From positions 186,001-250,000 of the forward strand of contig NZ_OCMS01000002.1 of the NCBI RefSeq assembly GCF_900215325.1: a stretch of DNA of 64,000 bases, given 5' to 3'. The notes under the pieces were generated by a model. The model worked only from the letters and a program-made list of their open reading frames with translations. It searched no databases and was not told the origin of the DNA. Below are positions 10,116 to 21,769 of the stretch, one piece after another (position 1 is the stretch's first letter; every line of letters starts with the position of its first letter). Position numbers and translations under genes: made by a program. This DNA is from Fibrobacter sp. UWB16. GTDB lineage: Bacteria > Fibrobacterota > Fibrobacteria > Fibrobacterales > Fibrobacteraceae.

Positions 10116-11516
10116 ATGAATCCGGAAGTTGCCGTCAAGATTTTTGAAGCCGGCAAGAGTGCAGGGGCTGACTTTGTTGAAATTTTTGAGGAAGAGACCC
10201 GCAGTTCAAGCCTCGGCTTGAAGGACCGCCAAATTGAAACCGCGACCGCGGGTACCGAGTACGGTATCGGCGTTCGCCTTTTGTACGGGACGGAAGTCCT
10301 GTACGGATTCACGAGCGACGACAGCGAAGAAGCTCTCGTGAAGCTTGTGAAGACGCTTGCGTTCGGGCGCATCGCCGCAGCAGCGGGGGCGGAAGGCTCG
10401 GCTGCAAGGCCTTTTGAATTTGCTCCTGAAAAGCGCATTTGCGATTATAATTTTGGCGCTTATCAGGATCCGCGCGTGCTCGGCCAGGCCATGAAGCAGG
10501 ACTTCTTGTTCCGTGCGGATAAGGCGGCCCGTGCGCTCTCGCCGAAGATTGCTCAGGTGGGCGCCAGCGTAACCGACAGCTGCACTTCGATTTCTCTTTT
10601 GAATAGCGAAGGCTTGCATCTGGAAATGACTCGTGGCCGCTTGCGTGTAAACGTGAACGTGACGGCAACGGACGGCACGGAACGCTTGACGACGCACGAA
10701 GCTCCGGGTGCTCTTGGCGGTTATGAACTTTTAGCAAACTATTCTCCAGAAGCTTTGGCAACGGAATGTGGCGAGCGCGTGCTGCGCATGCTCGATGCCG
10801 GTTACATCACTGGTGGCCAGATGCCGGTCGTGATGGGCAATGGCTTTGGCGGCGTGATTTTCCACGAAGCATGCGGCCATCCGCTGGAGACAGAATCTAT
10901 CCGTCGCAATGCAAGCCCGTTCTGCGGAAAGCTTGGTGAAGCGATTGGCCAGCCCTGCCTTACGGCCATTGACGATGGTACGATGGACGGCGTGTGGGGT
11001 AGCCTCAAGTACGATGACGAAGGAACGCCGACGCAGCGCACGACGCTTATCGAAAACGGCATCTTGAAAACGTACATGAGCGACCGTGTGGGTGCTATGG
11101 AAGTGGGTGTGGAACGCACCGGAAGTGCTCGCCGTGAAAGCTACAAGTACGCACCTGTAAGCCGTATGCGCAATACGTTTATCGCTCCGGGCAAGGATAC
11201 GCTCGATTCCATGATTGCAAGTGTGGATAATGGTCTCTATGCAGCCCGCATGGCTGGCGGTTCTGTGAACCCGGCAACGGGTGAATTCAACTTTGCCGTC
11301 GATGAAGGTTACGTCATTCGTAATGGCAAGATTTGCGAGCCGGTTCGCGGTGCAACGCTTATCGGTAAAGGCCACGAAATCATGCCGCGCATTAGCATGG
11401 TCGGTACGGACTTTGAACAGGCTGCAGGCGTTTGTGGAGCCTCTTCGGGACACGTGCCGGTGACCGTCGGCCAGCCCTCCATTAAGGTGGACCAAATTCT
11501 CGTCGGTGGACGATAA
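10116..11516 (+). CDS. tldD: Metalloprotease TldD
   Basis: TldD is the zinc-protease half of the TldD/PmbA (TldE) heterodimer that processes unfolded peptides and some modified peptides such as microcin B17. The zinc motif HEACGH is at residues 250-255 (HExxxH). A conserved C-terminal Cys region (AGVCGASSGHVPVTVGQPSIK) provides the third ligand. Length is 466 residues, normal for TldD. No tldE/pmbA partner is next to it. It starts directly after hisF. It lies about 0.6 kb from the peptide-export cluster, but repeats and terminators separate them, so any functional link is speculation. Confidence 0.9.
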   Translation: MNPEVAVKIFEAGKSAGADFVEIFEEETRSSSLGLKDRQIETATAGTEYGIGVRLLYGTEVLYGFTSDDSEEALVKLVKTLAFGRIAAAAGAEGSAARPFEFAPEKRICDYNFGAYQDPRVLGQAMKQDFLFRADKAARALSPKIAQVGASVTDSCTSISLLNSEGLHLEMTRGRLRVNVNVTATDGTERLTTHEAPGALGGYELLANYSPEALATECGERVLRMLDAGYITGGQMPVVMGNGFGGVIFHEACGHPLETESIRRNASPFCGKLGEAIGQPCLTAIDDGTMDGVWGSLKYDDEGTPTQRTTLIENGILKTYMSDRVGAMEVGVERTGSARRESYKYAPVSRMRNTFIAPGKDTLDSMIASVDNGLYAARMAGGSVNPATGEFNFAVDEGYVIRNGKICEPVRGATLIGKGHEIMPRISMVGTDFEQAAGVCGASSGHVPVTVGQPSIKVDQILVGGR

Positions 11517-11527
11517 TACAAGACTTG

Positions 11528-11826
11528 ACTGGGTTGGGCTAAAGCCCCCAACTCTTTGGCTCGGTTATAAAAATGAGCCAGCTCATTTTTGCAACACTCG
11601 CCTTCTGAGTTGTCCTCACTTCGTTCGGAATGACGGTGAAGCATCGTCATCCTGAACGGCAAAACTGCTCGTCATCCTGAACGCGAAGCGTGAAGGATCC
11701 AGTTATATCTAGTTTGTAGAACAAGATTTAACTGGGTTCTTCGCTGCGCTCAGAACGACGAGATTATAACTTTAACTGGATTCCTCACTTCGTTCGGAAT
11801 GACGGAGATGCTACGGAATGACAGAG
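11528..11826. repeat. Mixed REP-like units and a second repeat type
   Basis: This occupies half of the 632-bp gap before the nucleotidyltransferase cluster. 11528-11634 is a composite: ACTGGG, a GGGCTAAAGCCC hairpin, GGCTCGGTTAT, a variable hairpin (aaatgag/ctcattt) and GCAACACTCGCC, ending as a REP unit (GGAATGAC). 11674-11698 is a perfect REP hairpin (inner ACGC/GCGT). 11736-11756 has GTTCT/AGAAC with inner GC/GC. A third unit ends near 11803. Confidence 0.8.
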
Positions 11827-11837
11827 TGCATAATGGA

Positions 11838-11859
11838 AAAGCCCTCGCAAGAGGGCTTT
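11838..11859 (+). terminator. Hairpin with GCAA tetraloop
   Basis: aaagccctc (11838-11846) and gagggcttt (11851-11859) form a perfect 9-bp stem with a GNRA-type GCAA loop. It could end transcription from tldD and the repeats. The T-run is short. Confidence 0.55.
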
Positions 11860-11933
11860 GGAGTATTATGGGTTGTCAATACAAGTAAAGTACAAAACCA
11901 TTTCGAATAAAACAAGAAAAGCATGTAAAAAAG

Positions 11934-11968
11934 AAACAACGGCATCTCGTGAGAGGTGCCGTTGTTTT
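11934..11968. terminator. Strong bidirectional terminator-like hairpin
   Basis: aaacaacggcatctc (11934-11948) pairs with gaggtgccgttgttt (11953-11967) through a GTGA tetraloop, a 15-bp stem with one G-T pair. An A-rich stretch precedes it and T residues follow. With the hairpin at 11838 it brackets about 75 bp without a recognisable gene, possibly a small RNA. Confidence 0.7.
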
Positions 11969-12057
11969 GGTGTATGGGATGTTTGGTTTTGTATCCATAA
12001 AATAGTTTAAATTGGAGTATTAGTGGTGTTTTTTGGAACATTTCCGATGTAAAGGTT

Positions 12058-12085
12058 TACAACACTTACAACGGCCTACAACACT
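12058..12085 (+). promoter_or_regulatory. Three phased TACAAC repeats upstream of the first nucleotidyltransferase
   Basis: TACAAC occurs at 12058, 12067 and 12077, spaced 9 and 10 bp, so all face the same side of the helix. The array ends about 64 bp before the ATG at 12149. Such phasing is typical of sites for an activator or repressor; no binding protein is identified. Confidence 0.45.
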
Positions 12086-12148
12086 GATTTTTCGGCGATT
12101 TTTGGGTAAAAAACGATGATTTTGCCATATATTTTCTAATTTGAGGCA

Positions 12149-13282
12149 ATGAATTCATTTGAAAAAGAGGCTTTGTACGAGCTTTTGCGGATTGCCGTTG
12201 GTGCAAACGACGCTACTCACTGCTTGACGCATACGCTTGATGCGGAACAGTGGCTTGAATTGCATTCTGTGTGCCTGAAGCAGCAGATTGTTGCCGTTGT
12301 CTACCATGCGATTTGCCGTTTGCCCAAGGAACAGCAGCCCCCGCTGGATATTGCGTTTCAGTGGGCGAGCGAAGCGGAGACGGTTAAAGGGCATAACCAG
12401 CATTTGAATGCCGAAACAGCTCGTCTTACGGGGCTTTTTACGGCACAGGGGTGTAAAATGGCCGTGCTTAAAGGCCCTGCCAATGCAAGGCTTTACCCCG
12501 AACCTGCGATGCGCCATGCCGGCGATATCGACTTGTGGGTCGAGGGCGGCCGCAAAAAGATTCTGGAGCTGTTGCCCAAGATGGGCTTTGCGATTAACCC
12601 CAAAGACCTGCTTTCGGAACACCATATCCATTTGAATTGCAAGAATCGTAGTGTCACCGTCGAAATCCACTACAAGCCTTGTTCCGGTAACTTTAATCCG
12701 TTCTCGACGAGCCGCCTCCTCCGCTTTTTGGACCGTGAAATCCAGGATGTAGAGCTGGTGCCCGAAGGTTTTTACGTGCCGTCGATGAAATTTGCGCTTA
12801 CGATGCAGCTTGCGCATATTCAAAAGCATTTTTTGAAAAACGGCATCGGGTTTAAGCAGATTCTCGATTACTATATACTCCTGAAGCATTCCTCCGTGCA
12901 AGACCGGCGTGATGTGAATGCGCTGCTGTCTTCTTTAGGGCTGTTGCGGTCTGCGGGCGCCTTGATGTGGGTCTTGGAGCGCGTCTGGGGGCTGGGTGAA
13001 TCGGAAATGATTTGTGCGCCAGACCGAAAGCGTGGCGAAAGGATGCTCGACGAAATTTTCAATGGGGCGAATTTTGGCAAGTACCGCAAATTGGAGCGGC
13101 GCGAAGTGCAAGTCCACTTTTTGGTACGGTGGCTAAAGCGCAAATCGCGTGATTTTAGTTTGTTCTGGTTTGCGCCGTCCGAAGTCGCCTGGATCTTTTT
13201 TGACTACCTGAGGTCTTTTTTCCGGTCTGTTCCGGTCCGCATCAAGATGCGGCGTCTCTCGCTGTGGGATGTTTTCCATTAG
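12149..13282 (+). CDS. Nucleotidyltransferase family protein (NTP_transf_5), copy 1
   Basis: A 377-residue protein of the NTP_transf_5 type (uncharacterised nucleotidyltransferase). The core is LKGPANARLYPEP followed by GDIDLWV, with the metal-binding aspartates at 126 and 128. A third acidic residue is likely in VEIHYKP. It is a clear paralogue of the gene at 14491: both share LPKE.QPP, LKG.ANARLYP, GDID and PEGFY.PS. In characterised lasso-peptide loci such enzymes accompany kinases that modify the precursor. Here the substrate is unknown. A weak hairpin follows, so it may be transcribed apart from the rest of the cluster. Confidence 0.8.
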   Translation: MNSFEKEALYELLRIAVGANDATHCLTHTLDAEQWLELHSVCLKQQIVAVVYHAICRLPKEQQPPLDIAFQWASEAETVKGHNQHLNAETARLTGLFTAQGCKMAVLKGPANARLYPEPAMRHAGDIDLWVEGGRKKILELLPKMGFAINPKDLLSEHHIHLNCKNRSVTVEIHYKPCSGNFNPFSTSRLLRFLDREIQDVELVPEGFYVPSMKFALTMQLAHIQKHFLKNGIGFKQILDYYILLKHSSVQDRRDVNALLSSLGLLRSAGALMWVLERVWGLGESEMICAPDRKRGERMLDEIFNGANFGKYRKLERREVQVHFLVRWLKRKSRDFSLFWFAPSEVAWIFFDYLRSFFRSVPVRIKMRRLSLWDVFH

Positions 13283-13300
13283 GCTTTTTAAAATACGACT

Positions 13301-13320
13301 GGAACTTTTTGTTCCGTTTT
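13301..13320 (+). terminator. Weak terminator-like hairpin
   Basis: ggaac (13301-13305), ttttt loop and gttcc (13311-13315), followed by gtttt. Five pairs only. It lies between the first nucleotidyltransferase gene and the promoter region of the secreted-protein gene. Confidence 0.35.
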
Positions 13321-13438
13321 GCGAGGGGTAAAGAAAAAAAACTTACAAAAAGAGTACGTAAATACGTGTTTTATATTGCAAGTAAGAATATTTTAAACTA
13401 TTTTTCTTGCTAGAATTTCAAAAGAAGGATGAAAAACA

Positions 13439-14308
13439 ATGAAAAAAATACATCTGACACGTTTTGCCGCTATGGCAACAGTCGCTCTGATGGGTTCAAC
13501 CGCAGCCTGGGCTGCATCCGGTACTGGCTGGAGCACCAGCGAAAGCACGTTGACGTTGCAATCGAACACTAATGATGCAGTCTCGATTTCAGGAGGTGAG
13601 TTCTCAGGGATAAACAAAATTATTGTGGCCCGTGGCGCGGCATCTGCAGAGTACTCAACTCTTATGCTTCCGGCAGAAGTCAATATTAGTGAAAGCGATG
13701 AAATTACAGATGTTTATGTCCCGACTGGCTATGTAATGGATGACAAAACATTGGACTTTTCACGAGTAGAATCGGGTACGATTAGTGCCAATACGCCCTA
13801 CCTTGTACATGTTACAGGTTCGCCTGAATCCTTTACATTTACAAAGTCCTCTGGCACCTATAACATAGTGGCTCCAGAAAAAAACGAATATTCTACCACA
13901 TTGGAACGTTCTTGCTGGGATTTCACTGGCTCTTATGCAAAAAAATATTGGGCAACAGCACCTGCTAATATTTATGGATATGCTGCAGCGGCAGGTGAAA
14001 ATTATGGTGCCGGTCAGTTTGTAAAAGTTGGTGAGAATGTGACTCTTCCTCCGTTGCGTGCATACTTGACTTGTACAAATAAAGGTTTTGGTAAGTCCTC
14101 TACAGATAACGTTTATGATAATCTTCCTGACGTCATCAAAGTTCGCTTGCTGGACAAGAGTGGCGAAACGTTGTCCATCGGTACGATGAACACCAGAACC
14201 GGTGAAATCCAGATGCAGGACCGCTATTACGATCTCAAGGGCCGCAAGCTTAACGGCAAGCCTCAGAACAAGATCATGTATGTCAACAAGAAAGTCATTA
14301 AGCACTAA
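13439..14308 (+). CDS. Secreted protein with type IX secretion-like C-terminal tail
   Basis: A 289-residue exported protein. The signal peptide has a basic start (MKKIHLTRF), a hydrophobic core and an AWA-AS cleavage site near residue 25. The body is Ser/Thr/Gly-rich and beta-like, and I do not recognise a fold. The last about 30 residues (DRYYDLKGRKLNGKPQNK, then MYVNKKVIKH) closely resemble Bacteroidota tails of the form YDLxGRxL..GxYIxNGKKVxxK, which act as or resemble type IX secretion sorting signals. The gene has its own upstream region with a short inverted repeat (acgta-aa-tacgt, 13357-13368) and is followed 17 bp later by the small peptide gene. Confidence 0.7.
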   Translation: MKKIHLTRFAAMATVALMGSTAAWAASGTGWSTSESTLTLQSNTNDAVSISGGEFSGINKIIVARGAASAEYSTLMLPAEVNISESDEITDVYVPTGYVMDDKTLDFSRVESGTISANTPYLVHVTGSPESFTFTKSSGTYNIVAPEKNEYSTTLERSCWDFTGSYAKKYWATAPANIYGYAAAAGENYGAGQFVKVGENVTLPPLRAYLTCTNKGFGKSSTDNVYDNLPDVIKVRLLDKSGETLSIGTMNTRTGEIQMQDRYYDLKGRKLNGKPQNKIMYVNKKVIKH

Positions 14309-14325
14309 TCCAAAGGAGATTTATC

Positions 14326-14487
14326 ATGAAAAAGCAATACGAAACTCCTAAGATGAACACCATCGATTTTGAATGCAAAACAAACCTTTTGGCAGGTTCT
14401 TGCGGTGGTCAGACTATTGATGCTCCGACAATTAGTAATGGACTCCTGGGTCTGAATCTCGACGAAATCGACAATAACAAGGCTTAA
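14326..14487 (+). CDS. Small peptide, putative modified-peptide precursor (53 aa)
   Basis: This 53-residue gene has one of the best ribosome sites in the region (aaaggag, then 8 bases, then ATG). The sequence begins MKKQYETPKMNTIDFECKTN and continues LLAGSCGG, then a 25-residue hydrophilic tail (QTIDAPTISN ... DNNKA). An N-terminal K.Y..PK....DFE...LLAGS pattern recalls small leader-bearing peptides of Bacteroidota. The GG could mark a leader/core junction, with cysteines at 17 and 26. It lies 3 bp before a TTG-started nucleotidyltransferase and upstream of PqqD-like, peptidase and exporter genes. The precursor role is inference. Confidence 0.7.
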   Translation: MKKQYETPKMNTIDFECKTNLLAGSCGGQTIDAPTISNGLLGLNLDEIDNNKA

Positions 14488-14490
14488 GCC

Positions 14491-15591
14491 TTGAATCAAA
14501 CAGTCAACGGAATGTTCTGTGAACTCCTGCGAGTCGCTCTCGGGCTCTCGCAGGTTTTTCCGTATATACCGACCGACAAGGAATGGCAATCGCTCTATAC
14601 AATGGCGCATCGCCAAACACTGTTAGGGGTCGCTTATAACGCCATAGCGCGTTTACCCAAGGAATCTCAACCGCCACGTTTGTTAATGTTGCTTTGGGCA
14701 AGAGATGCCGAAGCTATCCGCGGCAAGAACCGCCTTTTCTATCAGGAATCGGCCCGTTACACGCAGCTGTTTGCTGAACGTGGGTTCCGCAGCGCCATCT
14801 TGAAAGGCCAAGCCAACGCGCGCCTGTACCCAGATCCGCTTTCAAGGCAGCCCGGCGATATCGACATCTATGTTCCTGGCGGTTTCGACAAGGTCCTAGA
14901 GTTATTGCACAGTCTAGGGATTCAAAACCTTGAACATGTAACTCCAAATTATCACGACATTGAATTTGTAGACGAAAAAGGCGTGCTTGTAGAAGTCCAT
15001 CACAAGCCCACGTCTGCAACATATGCCGTCCGCTTGAACAAAACCTACGACGAAATCCTGAAAGTCCTCGAACCAGAGCTTGAGAACCTGACGCTTACGC
15101 CCGAAGGCTTTTACAGCCCAAGTATCCGTTTTGCGCTACTGATGCAGCTCGTTCATTTGTACAAACACGCCTTGCTTTCTGGAGTAAGCCTTAGGCAGTA
15201 CATGGATTACTATATGCTGCTGACGCACTCGACCGAGGCGGACCGTCAATACACATGGGAATTTGCCAAAAAAATCGGTATGCGGCAGGGTTGTGCTGCT
15301 ATTATGGGTGTCTTGGGGCGTGTTTTCAAGTTGCCACAGGATAAAATGCTTTGCAAGCCCAGCAAATTCTTTAGCCGAATCCTGTACCGCGCGACATTTG
15401 CCGAAGGCGACTTTGGAGCTAAAAAAACATACAAACGCAATGTGTTCAAACGCTGGATCAGCGACCGTTTTAATAACTTGCGCATATTGCCCATAGCTCC
15501 TCAATATTATATTTACAAAGAATCTAAATATTGGATCAATACCATTTCGCTTATTCCCGAGCGTATCCGGCGTCGGAAAATTGCTCTTTAG
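14491..15591 (+). CDS. Nucleotidyltransferase family protein (NTP_transf_5), copy 2
   Basis: A 366-residue paralogue of the protein encoded at 12149. Core motifs are LKGQANARLYPDP and GDIDIYV with aspartates at 123 and 125; VLVEVHHKP probably supplies the third carboxylate. The start is a TTG three bases after the peptide stop codon, so translation is probably coupled to the peptide gene. No stronger start lies nearby. The C-terminus is basic (RIRRRKIAL). By analogy with lasso-peptide tailoring enzymes it may transfer a nucleotide or nucleotide-derived group to the peptide, but this is untested. Confidence 0.8.
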   Translation: MNQTVNGMFCELLRVALGLSQVFPYIPTDKEWQSLYTMAHRQTLLGVAYNAIARLPKESQPPRLLMLLWARDAEAIRGKNRLFYQESARYTQLFAERGFRSAILKGQANARLYPDPLSRQPGDIDIYVPGGFDKVLELLHSLGIQNLEHVTPNYHDIEFVDEKGVLVEVHHKPTSATYAVRLNKTYDEILKVLEPELENLTLTPEGFYSPSIRFALLMQLVHLYKHALLSGVSLRQYMDYYMLLTHSTEADRQYTWEFAKKIGMRQGCAAIMGVLGRVFKLPQDKMLCKPSKFFSRILYRATFAEGDFGAKKTYKRNVFKRWISDRFNNLRILPIAPQYYIYKESKYWINTISLIPERIRRRKIAL

Positions 15592-15639
15592 TTTTCTTGA
15601 TAGCTCGGAAACGATTCGGTTAAGCTGTGAAGATTACTA

Positions 15640-16548
15640 ATGAATAAGAAATTTTTTAAAGTTGCTGACCATGTTTTTTGTGTCGAGGCTTGCGATGAAT
15701 TGCTCTCGCAAATGAGCAATTATGCGCCTTTTGAGGTGGATTTTTGCGATGCGAGCTGTGAAAAGCCTGTGTTTTCGCTTGCTGTGCAAGAGGCTTCTGC
15801 GCCAGCGTTTACCGAGGAAACCCGCCAAGAAGATGAGGGCCAGTCCATTGTATGTGGGCGTACGGCAGAAGGCTTGCCGGTATTTGACTTTTGGCTTTTG
15901 GATAAGTCGACGGGCGTGCTTGTTTGTGAAAAGGATTTTAAGCACGCGGTACTGTTTTTAGGCGAGAAATGCGATGGTGCGGCGATTACCGGAATGCGCC
16001 AGTTTGCGCTGAACAATGCGATTATGGTCTTGTATGCTCTTGCGACTGCGGGGCTTGACACTGCGTTGTTCCATGCGGCGTGCGTGTGCTACAAGGGGCG
16101 TGGCTATTTGTTCTTGGGCAAGAGCGGTACGGGCAAAAGTACGCATGCAAGGCTTTGGCTCAAGTACATTGAGGGTACGGAGCTGTTCAATGACGATAAC
16201 CCTGTAGTGCGTTTGTTCGAAAAAGACGGCAAAAAGGTTGCGATAGCTTATGGCTCGCCGTGGAGCGGTAAAACGCCTTGCTACAAGAATGTCAAATTTG
16301 AACTGGGCGGTTTTGTGCTTTTGTCGCAGGCTCCGTTCAACAAGATTTCCCCGTTGAAAGGTGTGTCTGCGTATGCGGCGATTATGCCGGGAATTTCGGG
16401 AATGCGCTGGGACAAGAAAATTGCCGATGGTTTGCACCTCACGCAAAACGGGCTTGCCTCGAATGTACCGATATGGCATTTGGAATGCTTGCCGGATGAA
16501 GAGGCTGCAAAGCTTTGCTGCCAGACGATTGCTCGTGAGATTCAATGA
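15640..16548 (+). CDS. HPr kinase-like P-loop protein
   Basis: A 302-residue protein related to the kinase domain of HPr kinase/phosphorylase but lacking its N-terminal domain. FHAACV precedes the P-loop GKSGTGKST (160-168). FNDDNPVV (about 187-194) and AYGSPWSGKTP follow, typical of the HPrK-like proteins found in peptide-modification loci. One characterised relative phosphorylates the C-terminal serine of the lasso precursor paeninodin. The 53-residue peptide here does not end in serine, so the target differs or lies elsewhere. The stop overlaps the next start (ATGA). Confidence 0.8.
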   Translation: MNKKFFKVADHVFCVEACDELLSQMSNYAPFEVDFCDASCEKPVFSLAVQEASAPAFTEETRQEDEGQSIVCGRTAEGLPVFDFWLLDKSTGVLVCEKDFKHAVLFLGEKCDGAAITGMRQFALNNAIMVLYALATAGLDTALFHAACVCYKGRGYLFLGKSGTGKSTHARLWLKYIEGTELFNDDNPVVRLFEKDGKKVAIAYGSPWSGKTPCYKNVKFELGGFVLLSQAPFNKISPLKGVSAYAAIMPGISGMRWDKKIADGLHLTQNGLASNVPIWHLECLPDEEAAKLCCQTIAREIQ

Positions 16549-17024
16549 TGGATTCCGCGAAAAAAAGTGATGCGCTCATCATGGCCGAGGCGATTCGCCT
16601 AGTGGGCGAGGGCGTGAGCGTTACGTTCCCGGTGAACGGTCGTAGCATGTTGCCGTTTATCGTGGGCGGCCGCGATAGCGTGATTCTGGAAAAGCCTGTG
16701 GACCTGCGCGTAGGCGATGTGGTGCTGGCGCATGCAATCCCGGATAATGTCGCGCATTTGGAAAATGCTGAAAAACATTATGTTATCCATAGAATCGTTG
16801 CACTCTCGGGTGATGATGTGGTCCTCATGGGTGATGGAAACCTGGTGCAGCGGGAATACTGCAAGCGGTCTGAGGTCTATGCCAAGGTGGTTTGCGTGGT
16901 CAAGCCGAACGGAAAAAAATGCTTGCAGAGCGCGTGGCGTTCTCGGATTGCATCTAAAATATGGTATATTCTTTTGCCAGTGAGAAATTATTTACTTTGG
17001 ATTTATAGAAAGGTGAAAAAATGA
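16545..17024 (+). CDS. S26-type signal peptidase-like protein (S24/S26 family)
   Basis: A 159-residue peptidase-like protein. NGRSMLPFI carries the nucleophile Ser34. HYVIHRIV supplies His82 where bacterial type I signal peptidases have Lys, as in SipW and eukaryotic signal peptidases. DVVLMGDGN and a DLRVGDVVLAH strand complete the fold. Only the C-terminus is hydrophobic (WYILLPVRNYLLWIY), so any anchoring is C-terminal. The start overlaps the kinase gene and the end overlaps the PqqD-like gene. A likely job is cleavage of the leader from the cluster's peptide; this is inference. Confidence 0.78.
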   Translation: MMDSAKKSDALIMAEAIRLVGEGVSVTFPVNGRSMLPFIVGGRDSVILEKPVDLRVGDVVLAHAIPDNVAHLENAEKHYVIHRIVALSGDDVVLMGDGNLVQREYCKRSEVYAKVVCVVKPNGKKCLQSAWRSRIASKIWYILLPVRNYLLWIYRKVKK

Positions 17025-17290
17025 AAATTAAGAACGGTTTTGTATTGCGCGATGTGTGCGGTGAACAGGTTATCATGGGCGAGGGCATTGGTGCCTTGGA
17101 TTTTGGCCGCCTTTTGTGTTTGAACGAAACGGCTGCATGGCTTTGGAAACAGGCCGAACAGCAAGGTGATTTTACTGTGGAATCGCTTGCTCAGGTGCTT
17201 TGCAACGAATATGACGTGAGCGAAGAACAGGCCAGGGTCGATGTCGCTGCGATTGTCGGTGAATGGCAAAAGGTGAACGTGCTCGAATGA
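17021..17290 (+). CDS. PqqD-like peptide-binding protein (RRE fold)
   Basis: An 89-residue protein of the PqqD family, the winged-helix RiPP recognition element that binds leader peptides for modifying enzymes. Features are an N-terminal beta hairpin (FVLRDVCGEQVIM), RLLCLNETAAWLWKQ (the LN..A..iW motif of PqqD) and a helical end with VDVAAIVGEWQKVNVLE. It is encoded with ATGA overlaps on both sides, which implies fixed co-production with the peptidase and the exporter. It is the strongest indicator that the cluster handles a leader-bearing peptide. Confidence 0.82.
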   Translation: MKIKNGFVLRDVCGEQVIMGEGIGALDFGRLLCLNETAAWLWKQAEQQGDFTVESLAQVLCNEYDVSEEQARVDVAAIVGEWQKVNVLE

Positions 17291-18957
17291 AGTATGTCGC
17301 TTGGCTGTGGCGCGGAACAAAAGATGTTCGCGTAAATATCGTCATCCGCATTTTGGCGGGGACCGCGCGCGTAGCGTGTGGCCTTTTGATGATATGGCTC
17401 AGCAAGCGGTTTATCGACGAGACGATTCGCACCGGGACGCAAGACGACATTTTGCAGATGATTTTGTTCTTGGTGCTTACGGTTGTGGGGACGATTGTCC
17501 TTAGGCTTCTGTATTACTACATGACGGCCGCTGCGACGGTCAAAAAGACGAATGCGCTTAGGCTGTTCTATTTTGGTACGCTGTTCAGGCGTAAGCTTTT
17601 TGATGGCCATGAACTGCATTCGGGCGATGTGTCTTCGAGGCTTTCGAAGGATATCGAAACGGTATCGACTTCTATTATCGATACGATTCCGCAGATGGCG
17701 GTGACCGGAATCCAGCTTGTGGGCGCGTTTTTGCTGATGCGCTGGTTCGATGCGCGGTTGGCGTGGGCGCTGTTGCTGCTGACCCCTGTGCTGGTCGTGG
17801 TAGGGAAGCTGATTTCTCGGCGCTTGCGTAATATGACGCTTGAAATTCGCGAAGGCGAAAGCCGCATCCAGATGCAGGTGCAGGAGGGCGTGGAATACAA
17901 CGCCGTGTTGCGCTCGCTCGAAAGCGAAAACTGGGTGCTGGAACGCCTTGGTTTAAAACAAAATAAGCTTGAAGGCGATGTCCTGCGCCGGACGCGTTTT
18001 ACGGCGGTGGCTCGGTTTGCGATTGGCTCTGCGTTTGGGCTTGGGTACTTGCTTGCCTTTATTTGGGGCGGCCTTGGGTTGCGCAATGGGACGATTACGT
18101 TTGGCGTGATGACGTCTTTTTTGCAGCTGGTCGGGCAAATCCAGCACCCGATTTTGACGTTGCTTGGGATGGTGCCGCAGCTGGTGCATTCGACGGCTAG
18201 CATTGACCGCTTGGATGAACTGGAAAAAGGCGCTGACGAGACTCCGGGGGAATCGCGCGCGGAAGAGCATTTGGGAGTGCGCGCGGAATCGCTGTCGGGA
18301 ATGTGCCCTGAAATGCGCGCGCGGCTCGGGTTGCGCTTGGACAACGTAAGTTTTGGGTATAAGGGTGGGGACCGCGAAGTGGTATGCGGGTTCTCGCACG
18401 ATTTTAAGCCGGGGAGCAAAAACGCTATCATGGGCGAGACGGGCAAGGGCAAGACGACGTTGTTTAGGCTTTTGCTTGGGTTTATCAAGCCCGATTTTGG
18501 TAGGATTGAACTTTATACGGAACGCGAGAATGTGGCTGTTTCGGAGGCGACCCGTTCGAATTTTGTGTACGTGCCTCAGGGCAATACGCTGATGAACGGC
18601 TCCGTGCGCTATAATCTGCAACTTGCAAAACCGGCTGCGACCGATGACGAGATGAAGCGTGTCTTGCATATTGCCTGCGCTGAATTTGTGAATGATTTGC
18701 CGAACGGGCTGGACTGCGAAATCGGCGAACGCGGGCATGGACTTAGCGAAGGCCAGGCTCAGCGTATTGCGATTGCTCGTGGGCTTTTGCGCCCGGGCAG
18801 CATTTTGCTTTTTGATGAAATCAGCTCGTCGCTGGACGAGGCGACCGAGGCGGAGCTTTACCGTCGGCTGTTCGAGGCCTTCCCGGAAAAGACTATGCTT
18901 TTTGTGACGCACAGGACCGCCGTTTGCGAAATGTGTGACGAAACCGTAAGGTTATAA
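17287..18957 (+). CDS. ABC transporter, fused permease and ATPase (peptide exporter type)
   Basis: A 556-residue half-transporter with an N-terminal six-helix membrane domain and a C-terminal ATPase. Walker A is GETGKGKTT (about 382-390), the Q-loop region is VYVPQGNTLMNGSV, the signature is LSEGQAQR (about 485) and Walker B is ILLFDEISSSLD (about 506), followed by the H-loop FVTHRTA. No C39 peptidase domain is present at the N-terminus, so leader removal would need a separate enzyme, fitting the S26-like gene upstream. A linker rich in Arg/Glu (about 318-345) sits between the domains. The start overlaps the PqqD-like stop (ATGA). Confidence 0.88.
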   Translation: MKYVAWLWRGTKDVRVNIVIRILAGTARVACGLLMIWLSKRFIDETIRTGTQDDILQMILFLVLTVVGTIVLRLLYYYMTAAATVKKTNALRLFYFGTLFRRKLFDGHELHSGDVSSRLSKDIETVSTSIIDTIPQMAVTGIQLVGAFLLMRWFDARLAWALLLLTPVLVVVGKLISRRLRNMTLEIREGESRIQMQVQEGVEYNAVLRSLESENWVLERLGLKQNKLEGDVLRRTRFTAVARFAIGSAFGLGYLLAFIWGGLGLRNGTITFGVMTSFLQLVGQIQHPILTLLGMVPQLVHSTASIDRLDELEKGADETPGESRAEEHLGVRAESLSGMCPEMRARLGLRLDNVSFGYKGGDREVVCGFSHDFKPGSKNAIMGETGKGKTTLFRLLLGFIKPDFGRIELYTERENVAVSEATRSNFVYVPQGNTLMNGSVRYNLQLAKPAATDDEMKRVLHIACAEFVNDLPNGLDCEIGERGHGLSEGQAQRIAIARGLLRPGSILLFDEISSSLDEATEAELYRRLFEAFPEKTMLFVTHRTAVCEMCDETVRL

Positions 18958-18984
18958 GTCTGCTGTGATAAGTGTGTAAGGAGG

Positions 18985-19006
18985 TTCCCGCTTTCGCGGG
19001 AATGAC
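18985..19006. repeat. Short palindromic repeat (TTCCCGC/GCGGGAA ... GAC)
   Basis: Stem ttcccgc (18985-18991) and gcgggaa (18996-19002), followed by tgac. It is a sister of the units at 47729 and 60046: the same GTC flank with a single longer stem. Confidence 0.75.
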
Positions 19007-19090
19007 AGAAAGGGTTGTTTCAAAAAAATCCTCTGAATCGTTGCTTTTGAAACGCTGGCGTGTTATTTTTTGAATAGGGATGGTTTTTGG

Positions 19091-19114
19091 AACGGCTGAA
19101 AAAGCCGTTTTTTC
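19091..19114 (+). terminator. Terminator ending the peptide/ABC cluster
   Basis: aacggct (19091-19097), gaaaa loop, agccgtt (19103-19109), then TTTT. It lies downstream of the ABC gene and upstream of the sigma-54 promoter of clpB, so it separates the two transcripts. Confidence 0.8.
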
Positions 19115-19150
19115 GCTGAAAATCGCGATTTTAGGGAGCTAGGGGCGTTT

Positions 19151-19166
19151 TGGCACGCCATTTGCA
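19151..19166 (+). promoter_or_regulatory. Sigma-54 (RpoN) promoter of clpB
   Basis: TGGCACGCCATTTGCA matches the -24/-12 consensus TGGCACG-N4-TTGCA exactly. GG is at 19152-19153 and GC at 19164-19165, with the required 10 bp between. The predicted start is near 19177, about 25 bases before the clpB ATG. Sigma-54 promoters need an activator ATPase; no binding site for one was identified upstream. Confidence 0.85.
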
Positions 19167-19201
19167 TAGGGTAAGGCGTAAAAAAAGAAAGAAGGTCTAT
19201 T

Positions 19202-21769
19202 ATGTCAGATTTTACTAACGATGCAGAAAAGGTCTTGGCCAAGGCGCAGAGCTTGCGCGACCGCTGTTCGCACTCCTATTTGGGTGCGGCTCATTTGGCC
19301 GTTGGTCTTGTTGAAGGCCCTGATGCAACCCTGAAGAAACTCTATAAATCTAAAGGGGTGAAGACCTCGGAACTCCGAGGCCGTTTGGAACCGTTTGTCC
19401 AGAAAATCCCGCGCATGGAAGGCGTAAACCCGGATGTGGAACCGGATAGCGACTTGAACCGTATTTTGCGTGCCGCTGTGCAGGCGGCTCGTCAGGTCAG
19501 CCGTATGGTAACGCCGGGCGATTTGCTCGTGGCTTTGATGAAGTTCTCGGGCGACCGTGGACTGGCGAAGGTCTTTGAAGATGCTCTTGGCTCGACCGAA
19601 GTGGTGGAAACTTGGCTTTCAGATCCGTTTGCGGGTGCCGCAAATGCCGAAGAACAGTCTCCGCTGAAACTTTATGGCCGTGAACTCGTGGAAATGGCGG
19701 CTGATGGAAAGCTCTCGCCGGTGATTGGCCGTGAAGAAGAAATCCGCCGTGTGATTTTGATTTTGAGCCGTAAGACAAAGAACAATCCGTGCTTGGTCGG
19801 TGAACCGGGCGTGGGTAAGACGGCTATTGTTGAAGGCCTTGCCGAACGTATTTACCGCGGCGACGTGCCGGATGCGTTGAAGGGCAAGAAGGTCTTTGCA
19901 CTTGATTTGTCTGCCTTGATGGCGGGCGCCAAGTACCGTGGCGACTTTGAAGAACGTCTCAAATCTGTGATTGATGCTATCGAAGAAGATGGCAACACGC
20001 TTATGTTCATCGACGAACTCCACAACATTGTGGGGGCGGGCAAGACCGAAGGCTCGATGGACTTGGGCAATATGCTTAAGCCGAAACTTGCTCGTGGCGA
20101 ACTCCATTGCATTGGTGCAACGACGACTCAGGAATACCGCAAGTACATCGAAAAGGATTCCGCTTTGGAACGTCGATTCCAGCCGGTGCAGGTCTCTGAA
20201 CCGAGCGAAGACGAAGCAATTTCCATCTTGCGTGGCATTAAGGATGGCTTTGATGCGCACCATGGCGTGCGTCTGCACGATAACGCGCTCGTGGCTGCTG
20301 TGAAGCTTTCGAACCGTTACATCAGTGACCGATTCCTCCCGGATAAGGCCATTGACTTGATCGACGAGGCGGCAAGCCTTGTGAAAACGCAGATGGATAC
20401 GGTCCCGGAAGCGCTTGATACCTTACAGCGTAAGGAACTCCAGATGAAGATCGAAGAGCAGGCGCTTTCGAAGGAAACGGATGAAGCGAGCGTCAAGCGC
20501 TTGAAAGAACTCCGTGAAGACCTTGCCGTGACCGACGCTGCCGTCAAGCAGATGCAGGAACGTTGGCAGGACCGCCGTGCCGCATTTGCCGAAGTACAGG
20601 ACTTGAAGAAATCCTTGAAGGCTGCAAAGGACGAGATGGAACAGGCCGAAGCCCGTTACGACTTGAACCGTGCTGCTGAACTCAAGTACAACAAGATCGT
20701 GAACATCGAAAAGGAACTGGCTCAAAAGACCGAAGCGCTCCGCAAGAGTGCCGAAGAAGGTGGCTTGAGCGAAGAAGTGACCGAAGAGACGATTGCGCTT
20801 GTGGTGAGCCGTTGGACAGGCATTCCGGTGACAAAGCTTTGCGAAGGCGAAAAGGCAAAGTTGTTGCACTTGGACGAACGTCTGCATGCTCGCGTGATTG
20901 GCCAGGACGAAGCTGTTGAAGCCGTGTCCGAAGCGATTTTGCGTAACCGTAGCGGCCTCTCCCGTGAAAATGCGCCGATTGGAAGCTTCCTCTTCTTGGG
21001 TCCGACGGGCGTGGGTAAGACGGAACTTGCAAAGGCATTGGCTGTGGAACTTTTCGATAGCGAAAACGCACTTGTCCGTATCGACATGAGCGAATACATG
21101 GAAAAACATAGCGTTAGCCGTTTGATCGGTGCTCCTCCGGGATACGTGGGCTATGAAGAAGGCGGTCAGCTGACCGAAGCTGTGCGTACGCATCCGTACT
21201 GCGTGATTTTGCTCGACGAAATCGAAAAGGCGCACCCGGACGTGTTCAATACGCTGTTGCAGGTGCTCGATGACGGTCGTTTGACGGACGGCAAGGGTCG
21301 TACGGTGAACTTCAAGAACACCTTGATTTTGATGACCTCGAATCTGGGTGCCGAGAAGTTCCGCTTGAGTGCGGCTAACGCCAAGAACGGTGAACCGCCG
21401 CAGGTTGCGCTTGCGGATGTCGAAGCCGACTTGCATGCATTCTTCCGCCCGGAATTCTTGAACCGTTTGGACGAAGTGCTTGTGTTCCAGAGCCTCTCGA
21501 AGAAGCAAATTCGCGAAATCGTGAAACTCAAATTTGCGGATTTGGCGAACCGCGCTGCCCGTCAGGACTTGGTGCTTACGCTTTCGGATGCGGCACTTGA
21601 TGCAATTGCGGAAGGTGCTTACCAGCCGGAATTTGGCGCACGCCCGATTCAGCGTTACATCGAACGCAACATTGAACGTCCGTTGAGCCACGCTATACTC
21701 TCGGGAACCGTGAGTGCGGCAAAGCCTGCCGTGGTGGACTACAAGGACGGAATGTTTGTAGTGAAGTAA
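19202..21769 (+). CDS. clpB: ATP-dependent disaggregase ClpB
   Basis: ClpB rescues aggregated proteins with DnaK. The 855-residue protein has all domains in order: N-domain, first AAA+ module ([28 protein letters not shown]), a coiled-coil M domain (about 400-520, the mark of ClpB against ClpA/ClpC), second AAA+ module ([40 protein letters not shown]) and the ClpB-type C-terminus ([17 protein letters not shown]). The ribosome site gaaggtc precedes the ATG. An exact sigma-54 promoter upstream points to RpoN-dependent rather than the usual heat-shock sigma control. Confidence 0.96.

Follow-up and report, generated by a model that had tools for sequence, protein, structure and literature searches.

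The gene at positions 14326..14487 of the analyzed window, a stretch of 64,000 nucleotides from Fibrobacter sp. UWB16, is likely to encode the precursor of a linear RiPP made by a pathway resembling that of the linear polyphosphorylated peptides (LPPs): the peptide would be cut near L22/A23, phosphorylated at Ser25, and co-transcribed with and act together with an exported protein. It belongs to a large family of small Fibrobacter peptides that very probably share one enzyme set for phosphorylation, trimming and export. All features of the locus described below lie on the plus strand of the window.

A family of small peptides with a conserved leader and a variable tail

The gene encodes a peptide of 53 amino acids, MKKQYETPKMNTIDFECKTNLLAGSCGGQTIDAPTISNGLLGLNLDEIDNNKA, and is preceded by a ribosome binding site, AAGGAG (14313..14318), 7 nt 5' of the ATG. 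The original prediction had placed a 53-residue gene with a strong ribosome site here, and its coordinates, length and translation are exact. As it had also stated, LLAGSCGG occupies residues 21-28 and the stretch from residue 29 to 53 starts with Gln and lacks Cys. Its remark that the gene is too short for ordinary gene callers was mistaken, since 53 codons are not under their limit.

Relatives were gathered by single-sequence search and then by a profile, which matched 76/80 genomes of the genus, including one chance match (G014, E 0.85). Among the good Fibrobacter genomes, 37/40 contain the family, with up to 14 copies. In G004, G064 and G095, an orthologue occupies the equivalent position, flanked by the genes of the exported protein and a nucleotidyltransferase; these three have the leader in common, not the tail, and the orthologous sequences from residue 21 onward (LLAGSVREN, LLAGSAREN) contain no GG. 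In the alignment of 38 members, Tyr5 and Pro8 of the YxxP motif (YETP in the window peptide, residues 5-8, 14338..14349) are invariant; variation is rare at Lys2, Met10, Leu21 and Ser25. Information content, computed for 25 relatives of equal spacing, almost reaches its maximum at Tyr, Pro, Met, Leu-Leu and Ser and drops to about 0.3-1.1 bits per column directly past Ser. The conserved block thus runs from Y5xxP8 to Ser25, with LLAGS (residues 21-25, 14386..14400) as its end and the candidate phosphate acceptor Ser25 (codon 14398-14400) as its last residue, followed by a variable tail of residues 26-53 (14401..14484). This Ser lies exactly 20 residues past Tyr in 43 of the 46 paired family members, and no other hydroxyl residue past the leader Tyr comes close to invariance. 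In the tails of the 25 equally spaced relatives, no acidic residue is conserved at a constant ring position. In 7 comparable pairs of relatives, which are not independent of each other, pN/pS amounted to 0.11 over the leader and 0.37 over the tail.

Because of the genus-wide profile matches, the syntenic orthologues and the contrast in pN/pS between leader and tail, 14326-14487 is a real gene and more than a chance ORF. The proposed precursor architecture, a conserved leader followed by a variable core, is borne out by information content and pN/pS alike, and the unlike rates of the two parts leave the precursor role standing. The gene also recurs in related loci as anticipated, although it is absent at the syntenic place in L033 and L034. 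Two further elements of that prediction have to be given up: a leader that spans residues 1-28 and is processed at GG, as the orthologues lack GG and the conserved block stops at Ser25, and an amino-acceptor Gln, as the residues at that place are variable. The locus gave no PADLOC or PHROG match, on which ground a defence or phage gene was rejected, and Rfam had no match within window 11500-19500.

A probable operon with predicted roles in leader recognition, phosphorylation, cleavage and export

The peptide gene stands within a series of eight genes. In order, these encode a nucleotidyltransferase (PF14907, E 3e-47; 12149..13282), an exported protein of 289 aa with an N-terminal signal peptide (13439..14308), the peptide, a second nucleotidyltransferase (PF14907, E 9.7e-47; 14491..15591), an HprK-like P-loop kinase (15640..16548), an S26/archaeal-type signal-peptidase-like putative leader peptidase (16545..17024), a PqqD-type recognition protein (RRE; 17021..17290) and an MsbA-like ABC exporter (17287..18957). 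From the kinase to the exporter, the genes overlap by 4 bp at every junction, the ATG of the peptide lies 17 bp after the exported protein gene, and its stop 3 bp before the second nucleotidyltransferase gene, which suggests that the genes form one operon. In relatives, this second PF14907 copy stays with the exported protein and the peptide. A TldD/PmbA metallopeptidase gene is located upstream of the locus (window 10116-11516); a 466-aa ORF, the length of TldD/PmbA, occurs near the locus in several close relatives and not at most other Fibrobacter kinase loci; this is probably plain synteny.

The kinase has an invariant P-loop (GKSGTGKST) and invariant NDD and PWSGKTPCY motifs. Its matches to HprK models are weak (E 0.0017 and 0.066), which counts against an LPP-like assignment. 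It was found in 72/80 genus genomes, normally as one copy; in G029, whose peptides are retained, its match is broken into two pieces in different frames (C2:368303-369161), as a frameshift or an error of assembly would cause. The peptidase has Ser34 and His82 in 68/68 sequences, and Asp97 and Glu104 in 66/68 each. The PqqD-type protein matches PF05402 (E 7.9e-14), with Asn35 and Asp74 invariant in 50/50 sequences and Tyr or Phe at position 64; no solved structure matched it well. The exporter matches the MsbA model (E 2.4e-62) and has no C39 peptidase domain. The earlier view of an S26-like enzyme as the likely leader peptidase beside an exporter without C39 is supported in both parts; GG as a cut site is not. 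No asparagine-synthase-like cyclase was found among the eight operon proteins, and the lasso protease B2 (PF13471) is absent in 80/80 genus genomes.

Near the enzyme operon of several Fibrobacter genomes, in some directly past the exporter, we observed an ORF of 178-179 aa (L043:11620-12159, L044:12820-13359, L041:4984-5523, L045:6837-7376 and L046:9096-9632). Six similar ORFs form one cluster, to which those listed may belong.

Peptides are paired with exported proteins and co-occur with the kinase

The exported protein encoded directly before the peptide shares a C-terminal domain of about 220 aa with other proteins in this position (13616..14305 in the window; ending DLKGRKLNxKP...NKKVI). 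In the retrieved loci, 46/49 peptides lie directly behind an ORF ending in this domain, with a median gap of 18 bp. Since these loci had been chosen for peptides or kinases, the pairing test was redone on ten whole genomes with separate profiles. Here, 53/60 peptides are directly behind an exported protein with the shared domain and 42/46 shared-domain proteins carry a peptide, where about 0.02 pairs are expected by position alone. The remaining 7/60 peptides have no partner, which counts against the LPP-like model. The pairing repeats by position in the sister-genus genome G153 (7/7 peptides, 5/5 domains).

Partner length varies between about 290 and 2666 residues, and several large partners contain Listeria-Bacteroides repeats, InlB-type repeats or GLUG motifs, as in adhesin-like surface proteins. 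Over the shared domain itself, Pfam and NCBIfam gave no match in the window's exported protein and six larger partners. Structure prediction of the domain from two sequences reached a mean pLDDT of 43, and the partner tail resembles type IX sorting ends by eye alone. Distances between partner domains correlate more strongly with those between tails (Mantel r 0.49) than with those between leaders (0.22), a correlation that may in part stem from duplication of whole cassettes. Each precursor probably works jointly with the adhesin-like exported protein whose gene immediately precedes its own.

Peptides, kinase and full-length partner domain are present or missing together. Kinase and peptides are both found in 37 of the 40 good genus genomes, and the other three (G014, G075 and G001) lack both and have fragmentary partner domains or none; as genus genomes are related, a probability calculated from these counts would overstate the case. 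No peptide occurs in the 14 sister-genus genomes that lack the kinase; in G153, the sole one that has it, there are 7 peptides along with 5 partner domains. As an exception, G018 has peptides and partners and no kinase was found in it, perhaps owing to the quality of the draft (90% complete, 7% contaminated). One enzyme set per genome accompanies 1-14 precursors, most of which are encoded elsewhere.

The tight pairing with the surface protein, closer than that with the enzymes, and the distance of most copies from the enzyme operon would also fit an unmodified accessory peptide, serving the surface protein as chaperone, export partner or regulator, with the enzyme operon adjoining by accident. 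We consider this improbable, as peptides and kinase are jointly present or absent across the 40 good genomes and the sister genera, the same kinase and peptidase occur with YxxP...S peptides in Bacteroidota whose examined partners are different surface proteins, and the YxxP motif with its fixed spacing to Ser is hard to explain otherwise.

Comparison with linear polyphosphorylated peptides

LPPs were reported by Popov et al. in May 2026 as RiPPs restricted to Bacillota, whose clusters consist of an RRE, the signal-peptidase-like LppS, the kinase LppK, the transferase LppN and the exporter LppD (PMC13381572). In this system, LppS, helped by the RRE, cuts after Thr(-1) and LppK phosphorylates the core Ser3 of LppA (F-E-T/A-Q-S), the YxxP motif is bound by PqqD-type recognition proteins (LppB residues N33, Y60 and D70), and LppN showed no activity in the host used there for expression (PMC13381572). 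The Fibrobacter locus has six types of part in common with LPP clusters. Features found in both include a discrete PqqD-type RRE, an archaeal-type signal-peptidase-like peptidase, an HprK-like kinase, an NTP transferase, an MsbA-like exporter and the lack of a cyclase. Both also have a YxxP leader, a conserved Ser just past the leader end and a variable core. Asn35, Tyr64 and Asp74 of the Fibrobacter RRE match the three LppB residues, and the two PF14907 copies represent the same type as the uncharacterised NTP transferase of LPPs. The residues of the window peptide at the places equivalent to those of LppA are L22, followed past the cut by A23, G24 and Ser25; on this comparison, the core would start near A23 and Ser25 would be its third residue.

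There are also differences. The leader ends in LLxGS in Fibrobacter and in FETxxS in LPPs, and the spacing from Tyr to Ser is 20 and 18 residues, respectively. In the peptidase, a conserved Glu lies near the Asp expected from LPPs; both Asp97 and Glu104 are candidates for the counterpart of LppS D93, and the third catalytic residue may be Glu rather than Asp. Unlike in LPPs, a single Fibrobacter enzyme set accompanies 1-14 precursors, most of them encoded in trans, and each precursor is paired with an exported protein, whereas the LPP precursor lies in a capsule locus. Further, the hosts are Fibrobacterota (and Bacteroidota) instead of Bacillota. Of the full LPP precursor motif, YxxPxVLxHQxIxFETxxS, YxxP and the final Ser are present, and VL and FET are replaced by Mxx and LL, which counts against the LPP-like model; strict LPP membership is therefore not supported. 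That the locus works like an LPP is well supported by the part list, the RRE residues matching LppB, Ser34 and His82 of the peptidase and the absence of the lasso B2 protease.

In the proposed pathway, the precursor would be co-transcribed with the exported protein gene, and the PqqD protein would bind its leader at Y5xxP8. Ser25 would be phosphorylated by the HprK-like kinase, and its phosphate may receive an additional group from the PF14907 nucleotidyltransferase. Cleavage near L22/A23 would fall to the Ser/His signal-peptidase-like enzyme, and release of the core, A23-A53, to the ABC exporter. A single enzyme set would serve all precursors of a genome, including the majority encoded in trans. 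By analogy with LppA, phosphorylation of Ser25 and cleavage near L22/A23 are the most likely processing events.

A variant of this pathway would make the peptide a RiPP precursor in which the decisive step is to nucleotidylate or glycosylate a residue other than Ser25, with the kinase acting on a different target. The PF14907 nucleotidyltransferase does move with the surface protein and the peptide in L057, L060 and L062, and the inactivity of LppN cited above would be in line with this reading. It is nonetheless unlikely, given that no other hydroxyl side chain past the leader Tyr is nearly invariant and that Ser25 sits where LppK phosphorylates LppA (PMC13381572).

Kinase and PqqD-type protein also occur together in other systems. 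The HPr-rel-A system (TIGR04352/TIGR04353) combines an HprK-related kinase with a PqqD-type protein, and the window proteins score far under its curated cut-offs (13.1 vs 200 bits and 14.9 vs 35 bits). Lasso clusters of the paeninodin and pseudomycoidin type have PqqD, an HprK-like kinase, a nucleotidyltransferase and an ABC exporter in common with the Fibrobacter locus; in them, a Ser is phosphorylated or phosphoglycosylated (PMC8498205), and the paeninodins have WxxP leaders (PMC13381572). A lasso peptide, with its core closed into a macrolactam, would agree with these enzymes and with the YxxP leader motif, which such lasso clusters also have, and the core contains Asp. Fibrobacter has a different leader peptidase, no B2 in any of the 80 genus genomes, no operon cyclase and tails without the acidic residue a ring would need at a fixed position; with B2 missing, a lasso peptide was rejected as very improbable. 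Equally remote is a bacteriocin of the double-glycine type whose transporter contains a peptidase that cuts after GG28: GG is present at residues 27-28 and an ABC exporter adjoins, yet GG is not kept even in orthologues and the exporter lacks C39, and this reading was rejected too.

A parallel system in Bacteroidota

A genome scan with the kinase yielded 508 relatives among the candidates; of these, 80 loci were kept, nearly all from Bacteroidota, and 77/80 contain an S26-like gene. Twelve aligned Bacteroidota peptides share the pattern YxxPxVExxExxVEKGFAxS. Matches to this family occur in 23 of the 24 selected kinase-bearing Bacteroidota genomes, up to 23 per genome, the weaker ones uncertain; as the kinase was the basis for selecting genomes and loci, these counts are not frequencies. 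Thus, a parallel system exists in Bacteroidota with the same kinase, S26-like peptidase and conserved Ser, here at Tyr+19, and its peptides are often beside surface lipoproteins. Several lie 8-57 bp before a lipoprotein gene, and 3/10 tested peptide-neighbouring proteins are fimbrillin-like. The peptide usually precedes the surface protein gene, whereas it stands behind it in Fibrobacter, and the examined partners lack the full Fibrobacter domain.

Some observations concern individual genomes. The Rikenellaceae draft SIG178 (G184, L125; 2.2 Mb) accounts for 23 profile matches, many of them weak. In Paraprevotella (G186; L205, L209 and L211), short YxxP peptides are nearer to the Fibrobacter form than to the KGFAxS form, and in two of them Ser comes right after an end in LL or LLC. 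Separately, plasmid pNP243 of Butyrivibrio fibrisolvens (L072:9479-10468) carries PqqD, S26-like peptidase and kinase beside a small YxxP peptide with a Cys-rich tail.

Possible implications for surface biology

An earlier RiPP survey of anaerobes listed none in Fibrobacteres, and a survey of Bacteroidales did not mention the terms kinase, nucleotidyltransferase or signal peptidase. The present analysis contributes extensive collections of unannotated precursors from both Fibrobacter and Bacteroidota and places LPP-like machinery in fibre degraders of gut and rumen, against the reported restriction to Bacillota. As nearly every precursor in ten genomes is tied to a surface protein, there is a direct, testable clue to function. 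We tentatively suggest, as a possibility short of an even chance, that in both Fibrobacter and Bacteroidota one central RiPP enzyme set provides each of several adhesin-like surface proteins with a dedicated phosphorylated peptide. If this is true, the modified peptides would serve the cell surface as components or modifiers rather than being diffusible antibiotics.
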